A stretch of 64,000 nucleotides of DNA from Chloroflexaceae bacterium (lineage in GTDB: Bacteria; Chloroflexota; Chloroflexia; Chloroflexales; Chloroflexaceae), in contig JANWYD010000014.1 in assembly GCA_025057155.1 (NCBI GenBank), positions 62,001 through 126,000 of the forward strand, given 5' to 3'. The notes below the pieces were generated by a model that worked only from the letters and a program-made list of their open reading frames with translations, was not told the DNA's origin and did not search any database. How positions within the stretch are numbered: position 1 is the first letter of the stretch; each line of letters begins with the position of its first letter. Positions 7,066-43,904 of this stretch are shown here, in pieces. Position numbers and translations under genes: made by a program.

Positions 7066-7419
7066 ATGCAGGCGAAACCCTTCGGGTGGGGCGTTACGCT
7101 ACTGCTGCTGGGCGTTGTGGTGGTCCTGGCGATTCTTCCCCTGCTGTTCATCCGCGACTCGGAGTTCGGCGGGGCCGATGCAGCGGCTGAAGAGGCCATT
7201 GGTGAAGTGGCCCCCGACTATGAGCCGTGGTTCAAACCGCTGTTCGAGCCGCCCGGCGGCGAGACCGAAAGCCTGCTCTTCGCCGTGCAGGCAGCCATCG
7301 GCGCCGGGCTGATCGGCTACTTCTTCGGGTTGAAGCACGGCCAGCGCCAGGCCCGCGCCTCGACCTTGGCGGAGAGCGCCCCGACCGGGCAGGCCGCCGG
7401 TGAGCGGGTGACCCGGTGA
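7066..7419 (+). CDS. cbiN: Cobalt ECF transporter, CbiN subunit
   Basis: A 117-residue protein beginning 3 bp after cbiM. Two membrane helices (about residues 9-30, VTLLLLGVVVVLAILPLLF, and 71-89, LLFAVQAAIGAGLIGYFFG) flank an extracytoplasmic loop containing DYEPWFKPLFEPPGGETESL, the typical CbiN loop. The C-terminal tail of about 25 residues is longer than usual. CbiN is needed with CbiM for cobalt loading. Its stop is followed at once by an array of 8-bp repeats. Confidence 0.92.
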   Translation: MQAKPFGWGVTLLLLGVVVVLAILPLLFIRDSEFGGADAAAEEAIGEVAPDYEPWFKPLFEPPGGETESLLFAVQAAIGAGLIGYFFGLKHGQRQARASTLAESAPTGQAAGERVTR

Positions 7420-7425
7420 GTGAGG

Positions 7426-7600
7426 GTGTGGAGGTGTGGAGGTGTGGAGGTGTGGAGGTGTGAAAGAATACCTGCAAATTCGAGCAGGATAGCGATCTGG
7501 TCGTGGCGATCCAGTGTGGAGGTGTGGAGGTGTGAAAGAATACCTGCAAATCTACAGCTCCACAGCTCTACAGCTCCACAGCTCCACGGCTCTACAGCTT
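7426..7600. repeat. Octamer tandem arrays (family G) between cbiN and cbiQ
   Basis: Four units of GTGTGGAG at 7426-7460 and two more at 7514-7530. A related 8-bp array of AGCTCCAC/AGCTCTAC lies at 7554-7600. A 30-bp direct duplication (7450-7479 and 7522-7551, ending GAATACCTGCAAAT) joins the first two. The 190-bp gap between cbiN and cbiQ consists almost wholly of this material. Confidence 0.9.
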
Positions 7601-7611
7601 GAACAAAAACG

Positions 7612-8376
7612 ATGCACATCATTGACCGCTACGCCTACACCAACGCCATCCGCGAGCTGGACCCGGCTCAGAAGGGTGGCCTGGCGCTACTGGCCATGCT
7701 GCTCTGTCTGGCGCTGGACCAGCCGGCGGTCGGGTTGCTCACGCTGGGGTGGATGTTCGCGCTGGCGACCCTGTGGGCGCGGGTGCCCGCGCCGGTCTTC
7801 GGGCGCGCGTTGCTTGCCGAGGCGCCGTTCTTGCTCCTCTCGCTGGTCGGTGTAGCCGTCAATGTCAGTCCGGCCCCTCTGCCAATGCCGGCGGTGCGCC
7901 TTGGCCCGCTCTGGCTCGGCAGCAGCGCCGAGTCCCTGGCCCTGGCAATGCGCCTCTTCACCCGCGCCCTGGGCTGCGCGGCGGCGCTGAACTTTCTCAT
8001 TCTCACCACGCCGTTGCTCGATCTGATCGAACTGCTGCGCCGTCTGCGCGCGCCTGAGACGCTGATCGATCTGATCAGCCTGACCTACCGGGCGATCTTT
8101 GTGTTGCTTGAGAGCCTCCAGCGCATGGCCACCGCGCAGGACGCCCGTCTGGGCTACGCCGGTCCCTGGCGCGCGCTGCGCAGCGCCGGTCTGCTGGGGA
8201 GCCAGCTCTTCCTCGATGCCTACCGGCGCAGCCAGCGCCTGCAGATGGCGCTGGAGAGCCGGGGCCTGGCCGGGCCGCTCCGTGTGCTGCCCCTCGACTA
8301 CCGGCGCGACCGGCGCGCGCGGTGGTTCGGCGCGGCCCTTGCCGCCAGCCTGCTGCTGGCGGGAGCGTGGCGATGA
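7612..8376 (+). CDS. cbiQ: Cobalt ECF transporter, transmembrane (T) subunit
   Basis: A 254-residue integral membrane protein with about five helices, for example LALLAMLLCLALDQPAVGLL and FLLLSLVGVAVNV. The cytoplasmic coupling region has EVLRRLRAP-like text (LIELLRRLRAPETLIDLISL) and the family's second motif AQDARLGYAG, which contacts the ATPase. It links CbiM to CbiO. The start codon follows the octamer arrays and has no obvious strong ribosome-binding site. Its stop overlaps the cbiO start as ATGA. Confidence 0.92.
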   Translation: MHIIDRYAYTNAIRELDPAQKGGLALLAMLLCLALDQPAVGLLTLGWMFALATLWARVPAPVFGRALLAEAPFLLLSLVGVAVNVSPAPLPMPAVRLGPLWLGSSAESLALAMRLFTRALGCAAALNFLILTTPLLDLIELLRRLRAPETLIDLISLTYRAIFVLLESLQRMATAQDARLGYAGPWRALRSAGLLGSQLFLDAYRRSQRLQMALESRGLAGPLRVLPLDYRRDRRARWFGAALAASLLLAGAWR

Positions 8377-9113
8377 CCGCGCTGCTTGAACTTGAACAAT
8401 TGCACTACCGCTTTCCTGGCAGCGCCGAACCTGCTCTACGCGGGGCCAGCCTGCGCCTGGAGGCGGGCCAGCGGGTTGCCCTCCTGGGGCGCAATGGCGC
8501 GGGCAAAAGCACATTGATGCTCCATGCCAACGGCCTGTTGCGCCCCTCATCCGGCCAGGTGCGCGTGGCCGGCGAGCCGCTGGTCTACACCCGTCGCGGC
8601 CTGCTCGTCGCTCGCCGCCAGGTGGGGTTGGTGTTCCAGAATCCCGACGACCAGTTGTTCAGTGCGAGTGTCGCTCAGGACATTAGCTTCGGGCCGCTCA
8701 ATCTGGGCCTGGATCTGGCCGAAGCGCGCCGGCGCGTTGCCGATGCCGCCGCGCTGTGCGAGGTGGACGATCTGCTTGACCGGCCCACCCACGCTCTCAG
8801 CGGCGGGCAGAAGCTCCGGGTGGCCCTGGCAGGGGTGCTGGCCATGGCGCCACGGGTTATCCTGGCCGACGAGGTGACGTCTGGTCTAGACCCCTGGATG
8901 CGCCGGCAGGTCTTGGCCATCTTCAACCGTCTGGTCGCCCAGGGGGTGGCGGTGTTGCTGGCGACCCACGATCTGAGCGCCGCGCGTCAGTGGGCCGATC
9001 TGGTAGCGGTGATGGAGGCGGGGCGGGTGATCGCCGTCGCGCCGTCCGCCGAGGTCTTCCGCGACGCGGAGTTGCGCCGCCTCATCGGCGCGGATGCGTG
9101 TATAGGAGTCTGA
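8373..9113 (+). CDS. cbiO: Cobalt ECF transporter, ATP-binding subunit
   Basis: About 246 residues from the ATG at 8373 (ATGA overlap with cbiQ). A standard ABC ATPase: Walker A GRNGAGKST, Q-loop in VGLVFQNPDDQLF, signature LSGGQK, Walker B VILADEVTSGLDPW and switch histidine in LLATHDL. The Walker B has LADE rather than the common LLDE, but the catalytic Glu is present. QNPDDQLFS is characteristic of ECF-type ATPases. It powers cobalt uptake at the inner face of the membrane. Confidence 0.95.
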   Translation: MTALLELEQLHYRFPGSAEPALRGASLRLEAGQRVALLGRNGAGKSTLMLHANGLLRPSSGQVRVAGEPLVYTRRGLLVARRQVGLVFQNPDDQLFSASVAQDISFGPLNLGLDLAEARRRVADAAALCEVDDLLDRPTHALSGGQKLRVALAGVLAMAPRVILADEVTSGLDPWMRRQVLAIFNRLVAQGVAVLLATHDLSAARQWADLVAVMEAGRVIAVAPSAEVFRDAELRRLIGADACIGV

Positions 9114-9118
9114 TGCTA

Positions 9119-9153
9119 TTTTGGATTTTGGATTTTGGATTTTGGATCTGGAT
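9119..9153. repeat. Heptamer tandem array (family H), copy 1
   Basis: Four and a half units of TTTTGGA, beginning 5 bp after the cbiO stop and decaying into TCTGGATAG. The same 7-bp unit occurs at 25444-25472. Confidence 0.85.
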
Positions 9154-16546: not shown

Positions 16547-17293
16547 ATGGAAACTACATTTTCAGGCGCGTTTGAACCAGAGCTTACCGTAGTCGGTCTG
16601 GGGCCGGGGGACCCCGAGTTGATCACCCTCAAGGGGTTGCGGGCCATCCAGGCCGCTGAGGTGGTCTTCGCGCCCCGCAGCCGCGACGGCGCGCAGAGCA
16701 TCGCCCTGCGCATTGCTGGCCCCTGGCTCGACCCCGCCCGGCAGCGGGTCGTCGAGCTGGCGCTGCCCATGGTCCGCGACGCGGCCCAACTGCGCCCGGC
16801 CTGGCGCGAGGCCGCGGCGACCATCGCCACGGCCCTGGGCGCCGGGCAACGCGGAGCCTATCTGCTGCTTGGCGATCCGCTGCTCTATGGCACGGTCACC
16901 TACCTGTGGCGCGAACTGACTCTCCTGGCTCCCCGACTGCAACTGCGGATCATCCCCGGGGTGACCTCCTTCGCCGCGGCGGCAGCGGCCGGCGCCCTGC
17001 CCCTGGCCCTGGCCGATGAGCGCCTGGTCGTGCTGCCCGCCAGCCACGAGGACGACCCGGAGCGCCTGCGGCGCCTGCTCACCGATTTCGAGACCGTCGT
17101 GCTGCTCAAGGCCGGCCCGGCTCTTCCCCGCATCGTTGCCGCCCTGGAGGAGACCGGCCTGCTCGACCAGGCCCTCTACGCCGAATACGTCGGCATGCCC
17201 GAAGAGTTGATCGCCCGCGACCTGCGCAGCCTCGACCTCCACAATCGCCCCTATCTGTCGCTCGTGATTGTTCGCCGAGGAGACCGTTTATGA
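16547..17293 (+). CDS. cbiL: Cobalt-precorrin-2 C20-methyltransferase
   Basis: About 248 residues from the ATG at 16547; the upstream open frame is noncoding hairpin DNA. A tetrapyrrole methylase: [21 protein letters not shown] at the N-terminus, [12 protein letters not shown] for the SAM-binding loop, [20 protein letters not shown], and [16 protein letters not shown]. The extra [18 protein letters not shown] segment is typical of CbiL/CobI. It adds the C20 methyl group. The stop overlaps the next start as ATGA. Confidence 0.93.
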
Positions 17294-20200
17294 GTTACCC
17301 CGTCACCCCCGGTACCGTCTACTTCATCGGCGCGGGACCGGGCGCCCCCGATCTGATCACCGTCCGCGGGCGCGATATCATCGCCCGGGCTGACCTGATC
17401 CTCTACGCCGACAGCCTGGTGGACGAGGCGGTGCCGGCTGCTTATGCCCGACCCACCGCCCGCGTGGTCGGCAGCGCCGGTCTGGATCTGGAGCAGATCG
17501 TCGCCCTGATGGTCGAAACGGCGCGGGCGGGCGGGGTGGTGGCCCGGGTCCACACCGGCGATCCCTCCCTCTACGGCGCGATCCACGAGCAGATGGCCGC
17601 CCTCGATGAGCAGGGCGTCCCCTACGAGATTGTGCCGGGGGTTACAGCGGCCTTTGCCGCCGCGGCTCGCCTCGGCGTCGAGTTGACCGTGCCCGAGGTG
17701 ACCCAGACGCTCATCGTCACGCGGGTGGCCGGGCGCACCCCCGTGCCTCCCGGCGAGGCCATGCGCGGGCTGGCCGCCCACGGCGCCTCGCTGGCGCTCT
17801 ACCTCAGCGTGGGCCAGATTGAGCAGGTGGTAGCCGAGTTGCTGGCCGGCGGCGCCTATGCCCCTGATACGCCGGTCGCGGTGGTCTACCGGGCCACCTG
17901 GCCCGACGAGCGGGTCATCACCGGCACGCTGGCCGACATCGCCCCTCAGGTGCGCGAAGCCGGCCTCACCCGCCACGCCCTGATCCTGGTCGGCCCAGCC
18001 CTGGGCGCTGCGCGGCCCGCCACGCGCAGCCGGCTGTACGATCCGGAGTTCGCCCACGGCTACCGGCGGCGGCAGGCGACCACCGACGCGCCGGCGGAGC
18101 CGGCCGAAGCGCCCCACACCGCAGTGATCGCCGTCACCCGCGCGGGAGCGCGCCTGGCCGCCCGGCTGGCCCCGGAACTGGGGGCCACGGCCTATGCGCC
18201 GGCGAAGCTCGCCGCCGAGGCCCCGGGTGCCACGACCTACACCGGCCCGGCGCGCGATTTGGTGCGGACCCTCTGGGGCCGCGCCCGCGCCCTGGTGCTG
18301 GTGATGGCCACGGGCATCGCCGTGCGCGCCGTTGCCCCTCTGCTCACCCACAAAGGCGTAGATCCCGCCGTGATCTGCCTGGACGAAGCCGGTCGCGCCG
18401 TGGTGCCGCTGCTCGGCGGCCACCGCGCCGGGGCCAACGACCTGGCCCGGCGCATCGCCGCGTTCACCGGGGGCCAGCCCGCGATCACCACCGCCAGCGA
18501 CACCCAGGGCCTGCCCGCCCTCGACCGTCTTGGCCAGGAGGCCGGCTGGCGCATCGTCGAAGACGCAGCCCTGACCCACGCTATGGCCTGTCTGGTCAAC
18601 GGCGAACCGCTGGGCTGCTACGTGGACCCGGCGCTTCCCCACCAGCGCCGCCAGCTCGAGACCTGGCTCGCTGCATGCCCCGATCTTACCTTCGTTGATG
18701 ACCCGGCGGACCTCACCGACCCGCGCTTCGCCGCCGCGCTGCTGGTCAGCCAGCGCGCCCTGGCGGAGCACTGGCCGGCCCTGCGCGACAGAACCGTGCG
18801 CTACGCGCCGCCCGTCCTGGTGGCCGGCATCGGCTGCCGCCGCGGCGTGCCCGTCGAGGAGGTGCGCGCCGCCCTGGATGCCGCGCTGGCCGATGCCGGT
18901 CTTGACCCACGCTGCCTGGCCGCCCTGGCAACCGCCGCGCTCAAAGCCGATGAGCCAGGGCTGAAGGCCCTGGCCGAGGAACGGGGCCTGCCGCTGGTCA
19001 TCGTACCCGACGCGCGCCTCCGGGCCCTCGATCCCGCCGACTTCAACCCCAGCGCCGCCAGCGCCCACACCGACCTGCCCGGCGTGGCCGAACCCTGCGC
19101 CGTCGTGGTGGCAGGCGGGCCGCTCCTGCTCCCCAAGCGCGCCTTCGCCCGCTGCACGGTCGCCGTGGCCCTGCGCCCCGATACGGCCGCGTGGCCCGAG
19201 TTCGTCACCTCCACACCTCCACACCTCCACACCTCCACACCTCCACACCTCCACACCTCCTCCCCCGGCCACCTCACCCTGGTCAGCATCGGCCCTGGCG
19301 ACCTGAGGCAGTTGACCCTGGCGGCCCGGCAGGCGCTCCAGGAGGCCGAGGTGGTGGTGGGTTACGGCGTTTACGTCGAACTGGTGCGCCCGCTGCTGGC
19401 GCCCCACCAGGAGGTGCTGATCACTCCGGCAATGGGCGACGAGCTGGGCCGGGCGCGGCAGGCCCTCGACCTGGCGCGGGCCGGGCGCCGGGTGGCGCTG
19501 ATCAGCAGCGGCGACATTGGCATCTACGCCATGGCCGCCCCGGTCTTCGAGCACCTCCGCAACGAGGGGTGGGACGGTACGCGGCCCTCGGTGGAGGTGC
19601 TGCCCGGTATCAGCGCCTTTCAGGCCCTGGCGGCTCGCCTGGGCGCGCCGATCAGCCACGACTTCAGCGTGATCAGTCTGAGCGACCTGCTCACGCCCTG
19701 GGAGGTGATCGAGCGCCGCATCGCCGCCGCCGCCGCCGCCGACTATGTGGTGGCCTTCTACAACCCGCGCTCCCGCGAGCGCCACTGGCACCTCGGCGCG
19801 GCCCTGGCCATCCTGCGCGCCCATCGCCCGCCGGAAACCCCCGTGGCCCTGGGGCGCAACGTAATGCGCGCCGATGAGCATGTTACCCTCACCACCCTGG
19901 CCGAGGTTGACCCCTCCCAGGCCGATATGTTCACCGTGGTGCTGGTGGGCAACAGCCAGAGCTACCCCCTCGCCGGGCGCCTCGTCACCCCCCGCGGCTA
20001 CGAAGCCAGAACTCGCCCCGTATCCCCGCCTCCACACCTCCACACCTCCACACCTCCACACCTCCACACCTCCACACCTCCCTCTCCCTACCCCATCGTG
20101 CTCACCAACCTGAGGGACGCGCCGGTGGTGGTCGTCGGCGGAGGGCCAGTGGGTGAGCGCAAGGTGCGGGGGTTGCTGGAGGCGGGGGCGCGGGTGCGGC

Positions 20201-21429
20201 TGATCAGCCCGGAGGCCAGTCCGCAACTCCGGGCCTGGGCCGCCGCCGGGCGCATCGTCTGGACGCCGCGCGCCTACGCCCCCGGCGACCTGGCCGGGGC
20301 GCGCCTGGTCTTCGCCGCGACGAACGAGCGCGAGGTGAATGCCCGTGTCGCTCGCGACGCCGCCCTCCACGGCGCGCTGTGCAACGTCGCCGACGCCCCG
20401 GAGGAGGGCGATTTCCACCTGCCGGCGCTCCACCGCTCTGGCGAGATGACCATCGCCGTCAGCAGCGGCGGCGCGGCGCCGGGGCGCTCCGCGGCCCTGC
20501 GCGACGCCATCGCCGCCTGGCTCGAAGGCCGCTCCCCCAACGGGCAGCCCGGCAGCGCGCCGCCGTCCGCCGAGGGAGCGCCCGCGCCCGACCGACGCCC
20601 TGCGAGAGCGGCGCCCGGCGGCAAAGCCTACCTGGTCGGCGCCGGGCCGGGCCGGGCCGACCTGATCACCCTCCGCGGGCTGACCCTGCTGCGCCAGGCC
20701 GACGTGGTGCTCTACGACTGGCTGGTGGCCCCCGAACTGCTGGAGCAGACGCCCGCGGGCGCCGAGTTGATCTTCGTCGGCAAGACTCACGACCGCCATA
20801 CCCTGGAGCAAGACGCCATCACCGACCTGCTTGTGGCCCACGCGCGGGCCGGGCGGCGGGTGGTGCGGCTCAAAGGCGGCGACCCCGGCGTCTTCGGCCA
20901 TGCCGGCGAGGAGGCCCTGGCCCTGGCGCGGGCCGAGCTGCCCTTTGAGATCGTGCCCGGCGTCTCCTCGGCCCTGGCCGCCCCGGCCTACGCCGGCATC
21001 CCGCTCACCTTCCGCGGCCTGGCCAGCGGCTTCGCCGTGGTCACCGGGCACGAAGCGCCCAGCACCCCCCATCACCTGGACTGGGCCGCCCTGGCCCGCG
21101 TGCCCACCCTGGTGGTGCTGATGGGCCTGCACCGTACCGAGGCCATCTGCGCCGCCCTGCGGGAGGCCGGGCGCGCCCCCGACACCCCCGTGGCGGTCAT
21201 CAGCCGCGCCACCACCCATGAGCAGCGGGTTCTGCGGGCCACCCTGGACAGCCTGCCCGCGGCCCTGCAGGCCCAACCTCTGCCGACGCCCGCCGTGCTG
21301 GTGATCGGCGATGTCGTCGCCCTGGCCGACGATATGGCCTGGTTCGACCCGGAGCTGGCCGCGGAGCACTTTGTGCCGTTCGATGAAGCGGCCCGGCACG
21401 CCCATCTTTCGGAGCGGAGCAACCCATGA
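17290..21429 (+). CDS. Five-domain corrin enzyme: CbiF-CbiG-CbiH-precorrin-2 dehydrogenase-SUMT
   Basis: A single 1379-residue frame. Residues 1-258 are CbiF/CobM (C11-methyltransferase: [31 protein letters not shown]). About 276-637 is CbiG, the cobalt-precorrin-5A hydrolase ([43 protein letters not shown]). 662-908 is CbiH/CobJ, the C17-methyltransferase ([39 protein letters not shown]). 936-1078 is an NAD-dependent precorrin-2 dehydrogenase of the SirC/Met8 type ([18 protein letters not shown]). 1112-1379 is uroporphyrinogen-III C-methyltransferase ([32 protein letters not shown]). Linkers 640-660 and 911-935 are repeats of TSTPPHLH, encoded by 8-bp tandem arrays. Starts in an ATGA overlap with cbiL and ends in one with cbiA. 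Confidence 0.95.
19206..19260 (+). repeat. Octamer array (family G) inside the fusion gene, first linker
   Basis: About seven units of CACCTCCA (reverse complement GTGTGGAG family). Three units (24 bp) encode one TSTPPHLH octapeptide. The array lies exactly between the CbiG and CbiH domains. Confidence 0.92.
20029..20080 (+). repeat. Octamer array (family G) inside the fusion gene, second linker
   Basis: About six and a half units of the same 8-bp repeat, in the same strand and same reading phase as the first array, so it also encodes PPHLHTST. It lies between the CbiH and precorrin-2 dehydrogenase domains. Confidence 0.92.
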
Positions 21430-22960: not shown

Positions 22961-23045
22961 ATAGCGTTTCTCGAAAAGGTTAATCCGCAACGATCGCGGC
23001 ACGAGCGTAGCGAGCCACACGGCTCAGGGTCCTTAGTGGATTAAA
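22961..23045. repeat. Family F repeat, copy 2
   Basis: ATAGCGTTTCTCGAAAAGG to CCTTAGTGGATTAAA. It aligns with the reverse complement of 6105-6191, including CGAGCGTAGCGAGCC and ACGGCTCAGG. It abuts family A copy 4 directly. Before it (22860-22960) I see nothing beyond a short GATTGCCGATTGTGGATTG stretch. Confidence 0.7.
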
Positions 23046-23186
23046 TAGTCTGTGAACGAAGTTTCCGCGCATTTCTACCCCCCTCCCAACCTCCCCCCAA
23101 CGGGGGGAGGCGCCGGACTCCCTCCCCCAGCGGGGGAGGGTTGGGGAGGGGGCGGAGGTTTAGCGAAAAACTTCGTTCACAGACTA
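23046..23186. repeat. Family A repeat, copy 4 (best-preserved)
   Basis: 141 bp with perfect 19-bp inverted ends TAGTCTGTGAACGAAGTTT and its reverse complement. The core has paired C/G blocks (CCCCCAACGGGGGGAGG, CCTCCCCCAGCGGGGG). TTAAA lies directly outside both ends (23041-23045 and 23187-23191), which would fit a 5-bp target-site duplication. Confidence 0.9.
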
Positions 23187-23229
23187 TTAAACCTTCCGGT
23201 CAGTGCTCTCGCCTCCCCACAACCCACGT

Positions 23230-25438: not shown

Positions 25439-25443
25439 ATTGT

Positions 25444-25472
25444 TGGATTTTGGATTTTGGATTTTGGATTGC
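25444..25472. repeat. Heptamer tandem array (family H), copy 2
   Basis: Four units of TTTTGGA-type sequence in the 53-bp gap between secF and the SAM-hydrolase gene, in the same orientation on the plus strand as copy 1 at 9119-9153. Here it lies 6 bp before a start codon. Confidence 0.85.
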
Positions 25473-41954: not shown

Positions 41955-42776
41955 CTATGGTTCCCTGCGCCCCTCCTGGCGGTAATGGGCCACCAGGGCC
42001 TCCAGCAGACCCGCTTCGGTCGAGACGGCGGCAACCACGGCGGGCGACAGGCCCAGTTCGCGGCAGGTTTCGGCCGTCGAGGGGCCGATACAGGCGACCA
42101 GGCAGCGCCTCGCCGCCTCCAGGCCCTCGACGCCCACCTGCCGGGCGAAGTAGCGCGCGGTGGAGCCGCTGGTGAAGAGCAGCGCATCAATCGCGCCCTC
42201 GCGCAGCCAGGCCGCCAGTTCCTCGCCGCCGGGCGCCGGCACGGTGCGGTAGGCCACCACCCGGTCCACCTGCGCGCCAGCGGCGCGCAGGCGCTCCTCC
42301 AGCTCCGGGCGGGCAATGTCAGCATTGGGCAGCAGCACGCGCCGCCCTGCCAGGTCGCCCATTGCGGCGACCAGTTCGGCGCCCATGAAGCGTTCAGGCA
42401 CGGCGGCAGGCTCGGCGCCCAGCAGTTCGCGGCAGGCGGCGGCGGTGGCGGGGCCGACCGCACCGATCTTCAGCGACAGGCGATGGGCCAGGCGCGGCGC
42501 ACGTTCGCCCAGGGCCTGAGCCACCACCTCGACCGCGGTGACGCTCGTCAGCAGCAGCCATTCGTACATCCCCGCCTCCAGCCGGCTCATGGCTTCGGCC
42601 AGAGCCGCCGGGTCCTCGGGCGGGGCATAGGCGATGGTCGGGCGCAGCACCGGCGTCGCGCCCAGGGCCGTCAGGCGCGCTGCCAGTTCATCGCCGCGCC
42701 CGGCGGCGCGCGGTACCAGCACTCGCAGTCCCGCCAGGGGCAGGCGGTCGGATTGTGGGCGTTGCGTGTCAGACAT
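41955..42776 (-). CDS. hemD: Uroporphyrinogen-III synthase
   Basis: About 273 residues from the ATG at 42776; the open frame upstream is octamer-repeat DNA. The family is weakly conserved, but the usual marks are here: RVLVPRAAGRGDELAARL, YEWLLLTSVTAVEVV, KIGAVGPATAAACRELLGAEP, GRRVLLPNADIARPELEERL, RVVAYRTVP and LLFTSGSTARYFARQVG. It closes the linear tetrapyrrole made by HemC with inversion of ring D. Position between hemC and hemB supports the call. Confidence 0.93.
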   Translation of the reverse strand: MSDTQRPQSDRLPLAGLRVLVPRAAGRGDELAARLTALGATPVLRPTIAYAPPEDPAALAEAMSRLEAGMYEWLLLTSVTAVEVVAQALGERAPRLAHRLSLKIGAVGPATAAACRELLGAEPAAVPERFMGAELVAAMGDLAGRRVLLPNADIARPELEERLRAAGAQVDRVVAYRTVPAPGGEELAAWLREGAIDALLFTSGSTARYFARQVGVEGLEAARRCLVACIGPSTAETCRELGLSPAVVAAVSTEAGLLEALVAHYRQEGRREP

Positions 42777-42802
42777 GTGTGGCTCCGCCGGGGAGCGTGG
42801 AA

Positions 42803-42914
42803 ATGTGGAGGTGTGGAGCTGTGGAGGTGTGGAGGTGCAGGGTTTTCTCTCCCCCGCTGTCCGCCTCTCCAACTCTCCGACTCTCCAGCTCCACAGCTCC
42901 ACACCTCCACACCT
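42803..42914. repeat. Octamer arrays (family G) between hemC and hemD
   Basis: GTGGAGGT/GTGGAGCT units at 42803-42838, then a spacer with AACTCTCCGACTCTCC, then CAGCTCCACAGCTCCAC and CACCTCCACACCTC at 42886-42914. The two parts run in opposite sense and could fold into one long hairpin. The second array reaches the hemC stop codon (42915-42917). Confidence 0.88.
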
Positions 42915-43904
42915 CTACAAGTCCCTACCTCTCCCCGTCAACGCCGTCAGCACCTCGGCGGCGCCCTGCGCCAGCAAGGCTTCGGCCAGGGCCGTTCCCA
43001 GGCTCTCGGCTGCCTCAACCGGGCCGGACTGCTCGCCGCGGACCACGGTGGATCCGTCGAGGGAACCGACGAGACCGCGGAGGCGCAGGCGATCCGGCGC
43101 GTCGGGGGTGGCATAGGCGGCAATGGGCACCTGACAGCCGCCTTCGAGGCGGCGCAGGAAGGCCCGCTCGGCCAGCGCGGCGGCGCGGCTCGGCCCGTGA
43201 TCGAGGGGGGCGAGCAGGGCCTGGGTGTCGGCATCGTCGGCGCGGCACTCAATGACCAGAATGCCCTGGGCCACAGCGGGCAGCATAGTTTCGGCGGGCA
43301 CCGGGGCGGCCACGAAGGTCGCGCCGTCGCTGCGCAGGCGCCCGGCGGCGTCGAACAGGCCCAGGCGCTCCAGGCCCGCCGTAGCCAGCACCAGCGCGTC
43401 GAACCGTCCCTCGGCCAGCTTGCGCAGCCGGGTGTCCACATTCCCGCGCACGTCGCGCAGCTCCAGATCGGGCCGCAGGGCGCGGATCTGGCAGGCGCGG
43501 CGCAGCGAACTGGTGCCCACCACCGCGCCGCGCGGCAGGGCCTCGAGGGTGGCCTGATCCGGCGCCAGGGCACCCTCTCGCAGCACCAGCATGTCGCGCG
43601 GATCGACCCGTTCGGGGAAGGCGGCGAGGATCAGGCCATCGGGGATGACCGAGGGCATATCCTTGCAACTGTGGACGCAGAAGTCCACTTCTTCATCCAG
43701 GAGCGCCTGCTCAAGCTCTTTGACGAACAATCCCTTGTCACCAACGGCGGAGAGGGCGACATCGAGGATACGGTCGCCGCGGGTGGTAATGACGCGCAAC
43801 TCCACCTCCAGGCCGGGATGTGCGGCGCGCAGGGCATCGGCGATCATGGTTGACTGGACCAGGGCCAGACGTGAGCCCCGCGTCCCGAGGATGCGTTTGG
43901 GCAT
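42915..43904 (-). CDS. hemC: Hydroxymethylbilane synthase (porphobilinogen deaminase)
   Basis: A 329-residue enzyme. RILGTRGSRLALVQS is the usual start; TRGDRILDVALSAVGDKGLFVKELE, SSLRRACQIRALRP and RGNVDTRLRKL follow. The dipyrromethane cofactor Cys is Cys257 in RRLEGGCQVPIAAYA. The segment normally reading VHSMKD or VHSLKD is CVHSCKDMP here, an unusual extra Cys beside the active site. It links four porphobilinogens into hydroxymethylbilane. Its stop codon lies at the edge of an octamer array. Confidence 0.96.
   Translation of the reverse strand: MPKRILGTRGSRLALVQSTMIADALRAAHPGLEVELRVITTRGDRILDVALSAVGDKGLFVKELEQALLDEEVDFCVHSCKDMPSVIPDGLILAAFPERVDPRDMLVLREGALAPDQATLEALPRGAVVGTSSLRRACQIRALRPDLELRDVRGNVDTRLRKLAEGRFDALVLATAGLERLGLFDAAGRLRSDGATFVAAPVPAETMLPAVAQGILVIECRADDADTQALLAPLDHGPSRAAALAERAFLRRLEGGCQVPIAAYATPDAPDRLRLRGLVGSLDGSTVVRGEQSGPVEAAESLGTALAEALLAQGAAEVLTALTGRGRDL

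Follow-up and report, generated by a model that had tools for sequence, protein, structure and literature searches.

Arrays of the octamer GTGTGGAG tend to follow gene 3′ ends with a fixed strand, the element often starting within about 15 nt of the stop codon. They are best explained, with a probability of about 0.6, as the arms of hairpin-forming tandem-repeat elements, a family specific to the lineage that occupies gene 3′ ends. Judging from the sequences, these would be fast-turning, slippage-prone 3′-end hairpin elements, and we infer a function for them.

Stop codons and strand

The window, a stretch of 64,000 nucleotides, corresponds to G000:C14:62001-126000 in a source genome (G000) of 5.13 Mb. 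It holds 23 copies of GTGTGGAG, against 1.67 expected and a maximum of 6 in 100 shuffles, and the exact 16-mer made of two GTGTGGAG units was located at 259 places across the whole source genome. Read backwards, the octamer gives a rotation of its own sequence, so that the reversed pattern is uninformative as a control for the 16-mer and 24-mer counts. When contig C1 was scanned for perfect runs of at least 2.5 copies with periods of 7 to 15, only five runs of period 7 and eight of period 8 were obtained, and all eight period-8 runs share one unit; simulated sequence gave 0.8 and 0 runs, respectively. The unit consists of 8 bases with GG runs at most (no three-G tracts) and contains no stop codon in any of its frames. 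Since 8 and 3 have no common factor, arrays of this stop-free unit are always open, in both orientations. Its translation is TSTPPHLH in the C-rich sense and VWRCGGVE in the G-rich sense, and both were observed.

Positions were evaluated in three sets of DNA from the source genome. The first comprised the whole contigs C1, C8 and C14 (768,692 bp). The other two, of 235,727 bp (30 loci, the first listed 16-mer places on C2-C7) and 121,884 bp (20 loci, from match lists), were picked for carrying arrays and thus inform on position rather than on density. Genes were called with a purpose-written dicodon model instead of standard annotation, and arrays were located by ungapped match to the cyclic octamer unit. 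Only 4 of 151 arms were coding, while the coding share of the DNA in the first two sets was 81% and 76%, which supports the conclusion that the arrays avoid coding DNA and favour gene borders.

Within 15 nt of a stop codon, 55 of the 147 noncoding arms were found with the G-rich strand as sense and 2 in the opposite sense; three lay within 15 nt of a start codon. The first-pass annotation had proposed insertion at gene borders. This holds in that the arrays are mostly noncoding and border-biased, but the preference is restricted to 3′ ends. Per set, the stop-adjacent G-sense arms amounted to 19/41, 20/56 and 16/50, with 1, 1 and 0 in the opposite sense. Free placement in any gap gave means of 1.18, 1.21 and 0.59 (largest value 5), and placement within the own gap (1000 runs) gave means of 5.6, 8.7 and 4.3 with maxima of 13, 18 and 10. 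The observed counts exceed the own-gap maxima in all three sets, so that the non-random position with respect to gene borders, as had been anticipated, is supported. A description as intergenic repeats can thereby be replaced by a precise rule of position and strand.

An arm at a stop was present in 46 of 88 clusters (16/27, 17/32 and 13/29 per set), and 54 of 57 multi-arm clusters were in G..C order. Single arrays behaved in the same way, with 11 of 31 at stops in G-sense and none in the opposite sense; the rule for stop and strand is thus not only a by-product of arm pairing. The remaining 92 of the 147 noncoding arms made no stop contact, partly because two-armed elements often place one arm away from the stop. 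Arrays occurred in 8 of 66 convergent gaps and in 14 of 309 co-directional gaps. The stop, mostly TAG or TGA, is often inside or touching the first octamer unit. The stops at the 55 arms were TAG in 32 cases, TGA in 22 and TAA in one, compared with 178, 273 and 112 in the sample background of 563 genes (Fisher p 1.5e-4 for TAG).

Gene ends that carry no arrays were included in a rough hairpin survey (12 mononucleotide shuffles per site). A fold z below -2 was observed for 38% of the convergent and 26% of the co-directional ends, compared with 12% of divergent 5′ sides and 2% of CDS. In the source genome, TTTTT was present in 5-8% of gene-end stretches.

A second repeat in the source genome, the heptamer GGATTTT, is unrelated to the octamer and forms mostly single arrays. 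One of them lies in the window at 9118-9147 (+ strand), 4 nt past the stop of the gene at 8373-9113, and follows the same strand rule. Another GGATTTT array of the window is located at 25443-25470. In the 768,692-bp set, 27 of 58 GGATTTT arms were at stops in G-sense and one in the opposite sense; in the two further sets the numbers were 10/22 and 3/7, with none opposite.

Operon-internal elements and coding arrays

Arrays had been reported in the cbiN-cbiQ and hemC-hemD gaps of the window, and both were confirmed. In the first gap, cbiN (7066-7419, + strand; Pfam CbiN 2.6e-30) ends in a TGA stop immediately 5′ of the array. The G-rich arm (7420-7462, +) starts at this stop, with GTGTGGAG units at 7425-7462. 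It is followed by a second G-rich array of GTGTGGAG units (7514-7534, +) and by a C-rich arm of ACAGCTCC-type octamers (7554-7599, +), which is the partner of the G-rich arm in the fold; cbiQ (Pfam CbiQ 1.7e-32) begins thereafter (7612-8376, +). The second G-rich array is within an exact direct repeat, 7442-7479 being equal to 7514-7551; the duplication noted earlier is therefore present, but its length is 38 bp and not 30. The RNA fold of the element was predicted at -95.4 kcal/mol (z -9.05 versus shuffles). The distance from cbiN to cbiQ is 192 nt in the source genome and about 3-12 nt in the outgroup loci L041, L043 and L048, in agreement with the view that operon neighbours have been pushed apart.

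The second gap is on the reverse strand, between hemC (42915-43904; Pfam Porphobil_deam 9.6e-78) and hemD (41955-42776; Pfam HEM4 3e-61). An arm that is C-type on the forward strand and G-rich on the hem coding strand (42860-42919, - strand) overlaps the hemC stop, and an arm of G-type on the forward strand, C-rich on the coding strand, adjoins hemD (42797-42837, -). An array abutting the hemC stop had been described; the stop TAG is even contained in the unit TGTAGAGG. The predicted hairpin has an energy of -83.9 kcal/mol (z -8.10 versus shuffles). In both gaps the inverted pair opens with a G-rich arm after the stop, followed by a spacer and then a C-rich arm. The operon-internal arrays would be the same 3′-end elements, placed behind a non-final gene. 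An intrinsic terminator, with a GC stem and then a U-run, was considered for the two sites and discarded: no T-run comes after position 7599 in the first gap or, in the second, beyond 42797 towards hemD.

Two further arrays lie within the gene of a cobalamin fusion protein of 1379 aa (17290-21429, + strand), which comprises three TP_methylase domains, CbiG and NAD_binding_7. Both are in-frame CACCTCCA arrays on the + strand, one in the linker after CbiG_C (19206-19260, C-rich strand coding) and one in the linker before NAD_binding_7 (20029-20081). Of 18 orthologues that allowed a measurement, 15 keep the reading frame open through both linkers, and most of them do so without this octamer. The exceptions were L045 and L049, closed at linker 1, and L032, which ends before linker 2; L047 and L089 were left out of the count. 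Every open linker has a length that is a multiple of three. Members of the genus have CACCTCCA, CAGCTCCA or decayed arrays in these linkers, whereas outside the genus and in G001 other octamers, REP-like palindromes or plain linkers were found. In other Chloroflexales (L033, L034, L038 and L041) the two linkers carry in-frame REP-like palindromes or other octamers, similar in this respect to the palindromic elements of Rickettsia. Loci of Chloroflexus, Roseiflexus and Oscillochloris likewise encode the fusion, with different linkers.

Since both linkers are open in most orthologues, and mostly without this octamer, the fusion predates the arrays. The fusion linker appears to tolerate and accumulate any repeats that are present in the genome, and the arrays presumably survive there because the unit is stop-free in every frame and the linker is tolerant. 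Rickettsia palindromic elements are inserted in frame within genes. Repeat DNA is likewise tolerated in a protein in the fusion linkers, although coding arrays of the octamer are rare, single in orientation and placed in linkers. The third internal coding array, in L202, covers residues 109-120 inside a glycosyltransferase domain match; its coding strand is C-rich, as it is in both linker arrays. At L206:4007-4036 an array in G-sense contains the end of a called gene, whose C-terminus is apparently lengthened by the repeat. Read-through of a lost stop into the array is possible in this case; it is not the cause of the cobalamin fusion.

According to the first-pass annotation, an expanding octamer inserts at the borders of tetrapyrrole genes or of their domains, and may fuse genes through stop loss. 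This is hardly probable. The separation of cbiN from cbiQ and of hemC from hemD by arrays, the arrays in two fusion linkers and the L206 C-terminus speak for it, but the genes at array sites are of many kinds: ten of them include a decarboxylase, an aconitase, a penicillin amidase, a SpoU methylase and an FGGY kinase, two of the ten being without a match. A preference for domain borders was not supported either, as the two linker arrays belong to one gene and the L202 array is inside a domain match. Starts are unfavoured and coding arrays few; an equal excess at starts, domain borders and stops, as for a border-inserting element, was not seen among the 147 noncoding arms and 3 internal coding arrays. 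Stop removal as the origin of the fusion was rejected, since Chloroflexus, Roseiflexus and Oscillochloris share the fusion with other linkers. Caution is advised before arrays of this kind are held to shape operons or to cause gene fusions.

The strand of the coding arrays also bears on a translational explanation, in which the G-rich strand, through repeats of TGGAGGTG, would provide Shine-Dalgarno-like landing pads that hold or re-load ribosomes behind the stop. The motif TGGAGGTG has 7 of the 8 letters of the complement of the 16S tail, the 16S gene of the source genome ends in GGATCACCTCCTTTCT, and the C-rich coding strand of the linker and L202 arrays looks as if the Shine-Dalgarno-like strand were avoided in genes. 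The explanation is nevertheless very improbable: arrays also occur between convergent genes, where there is no downstream partner (8/66 gaps), the motif is buried in the hairpin, GGATTTT obeys the rule and is not Shine-Dalgarno-like, and the L206 coding array is in G-sense.

Related genomes and orthologous slots

The octamer is a patchy, lineage-specific unit. Among the 158 genomes of the class, five contained the 24-mer of three units: 4 of 5 in the genus of the source genome and 1 of 3 in the genus of G014, a separate one within the family. A further 20 Chloroflexota loci (322 kb) were scanned for perfect arrays with periods of 7 to 12, without shuffle control, and gave 18 arrays of period 7, 18 of period 8 and 4 of period 9. 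The units of these short arrays vary between lineages.

In G014, 16 of 40 noncoding arms were at stops in G-sense and none in the opposite sense, whereas the own-gap null gave a mean of 7.2 and a largest value of 15. Contamination is an unlikely source of these arrays, the array contigs being about 68-81% identical to the G000 DNA compared. In G001, the most divergent member of the genus, the position rule is weak: 9 of 31 arms were at stops in G-sense versus one opposite, which is above the own-gap mean of 3.8 and below the largest value of 11, and arm order is without bias (3 GC, 3 CG, 1 CGC). None of the three GGATTTT arms in the G001 DNA compared was at a stop.

Orthologous slots were compared for 28 site-species pairs, obtained from 91 array clusters by alignment of both flanks and removal of repeat rows; the table needs two aligned flanks and thus leans towards conserved places. 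The octamer was present in 6/7 slots in G002, 4/6 in G004, 5/11 in G001 and 1/4 in G003. The octamer-free slots were nearly empty or contained either other palindromes (C1 237958 in G003) or longer stretches of unrelated DNA. For instance, at the place of a 156-bp octamer hairpin behind a stop in G000 (L223:2880-3035), G001 has a slot of 9 nt; by eye, this hairpin lies between the stop codon and the start of a putative tRNA gene. An octamer pair in G001 faces a GGATTTT array in G000 (C8, about 115729-115760), and one in G014 faces a weak GGATTTT array in G000. Copy number varies at shared slots, with, for example, 150 bp in G000 versus 69 bp in G002 between the same two convergent stops. It was thereby shown that both unit number and unit sequence vary between species at the same place.

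The two operon elements gave a similar picture. The cbiN-cbiQ element is present in G000, shorter in G002 and replaced in G003. The hemC-hemD element is present in G000, G002 and G004, part of it was found in G003 (contig end), and it is absent from G001. Inspection by eye of three near-empty slots revealed no target-site duplication. Since neither a target duplication nor a mobilising enzyme was found, spread by insertion is inferred. The octamer elements would spread into new 3′ slots, subsequently growing and shrinking by slippage, and would persist because a hairpin behind a stop codon is tolerated or useful. Each may be one of several interchangeable 3′-end hairpins that are co-transcribed with the upstream gene. 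Once transcribed, such a hairpin would most likely act on the 3′ end of the mRNA, by shielding or terminating it, or would dampen the gene before it at translation, in the way reported for REPs that lie close to a stop.

The main rival of the hairpin-element reading is a mutational origin, in which the ribosome-free nascent RNA behind the stop forms R-loops in the G-rich sense and repair or replication generates and lengthens the repeats, with no function needed. It would account for the stop edge, the strand rule and the single arrays, and also for the fact that the octamer and GGATTTT obey one rule and share orthologous slots. Alone, it does not account for inverted pairs in G..C order where both genes run in one direction (hemC-hemD, for example), nor for a single unit sequence at hundreds of sites in place of many local ones. 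It is considered unlikely.

Contigs of the relatives were seen to end in or near octamer arrays (G003:C685, G003:C219, G001:C368, G014:C9 and G014:C238), and the G003 fusion gene is split over two contigs around the second linker. The 3′-end arrays may account for draft contigs of the group breaking at gene ends.

Known repeat families

Within one open-access library, no paper on the octamer repeat came up for Chloroflexi, Roseiflexus or prokaryotes in general. The host group consists of uncultured green non-sulphur bacteria with hundreds of octamer copies.

The closest precedent is given by the GGGNATC / GGGGATT heptamer repeats of Xanthomonas and Nostoc (Rehm et al. 2015, PMC4692102). In the part of that report considered here, these are short G-rich tandem units that are dispersed, mostly intergenic and variable in copy number, as are the octamer arrays. 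Their sense strand lies up to 50 bp from the stop, stop overlaps included, so that a sense strand close behind stops is common to both families (PMC4692102). Many convergent inverted pairs and few arrays between divergent genes are also described for Xanthomonas (PMC4692102). The octamer differs by its 8-bp, GG-only unit, without three-G tracts, and by its occurrence in another phylum; with respect to the heptamers as described there, its stop edge is tighter, TAG is in excess and a second, unrelated unit follows the rule. Site conservation is poorer than the 83% given for two Xanthomonas (PMC4692102).

Octamer hairpins resemble REPs and BIMEs in lying behind ORFs, in convergent and co-directional gaps (PMC3733652, PMC12306157, as far as these accounts extend). 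ORFs often take their TAG stop from a GTAG REP (PMC3733652), and REPs less than 16 nt from the stop are reported to lower translation (PMC12306157). An element of REP/MITE type, moved by a REP-associated tyrosine transposase, would agree with the ORF-3′ placement, the TAG at the element edge and the pairs in opposite orientation, which match the GTAG REPs as presented in PMC3733652. Against this, the arms vary by whole octamers and lack the fixed 20-40 bp palindrome tagged with GTAG/CGTC; no common palindrome was seen among the octamer elements, although TAG is enriched at the edge (32/55). Moreover, the Y1 transposase domain (PF01797) gave no match in the source genome, which is estimated to be 100% complete, while the same search was positive in 5 of 14 control genomes. 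Transposition by a RAYT was rejected on the basis of this result, and there is little chance that the elements are of REP/MITE type.

The TAACTGA heptamers of Beggiatoaceae likewise form many sets of one short unit, mostly intergenic and sporadic in distribution (PMC4679880). They are found mainly upstream of start codons, in contrast to the octamer arrays behind stop codons, according to the portion of PMC4679880 used here. The octamer family thus shares its placement with the Xanthomonas/Nostoc heptamers and the REPs, as these are portrayed in the sources cited, but not the heptamer unit, the REP palindrome or the transposase.

In one genome, two unrelated repeats occupy the same stop-codon edge on the same strand, and their slots are refilled between species. 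The stop rule links tandem repeats, REP-like hairpins and translation termination. As a speculative generalisation, to which a low probability is given, the region just behind the stop could serve bacteria in general as the place where short tandem repeats originate and are exchanged. As the last ribosome leaves, G-rich sense RNA would open the DNA, and lineage-specific 7- or 8-bp units would arise, lengthen, become hairpins and replace one another. Unrelated units in unrelated phyla (the octamer and GGATTTT; GGGNATC of Xanthomonas and Nostoc) would then come to obey one rule of strand and position.

Apart from the octamer, a repeat of roughly 145 bp, dispersed and with a G+C-rich palindrome in its interior, was observed at G000:C1:226859-227004 and in the window at about 23043-23190. 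Many dozens of matches to it were listed in G000, G002 and G003.
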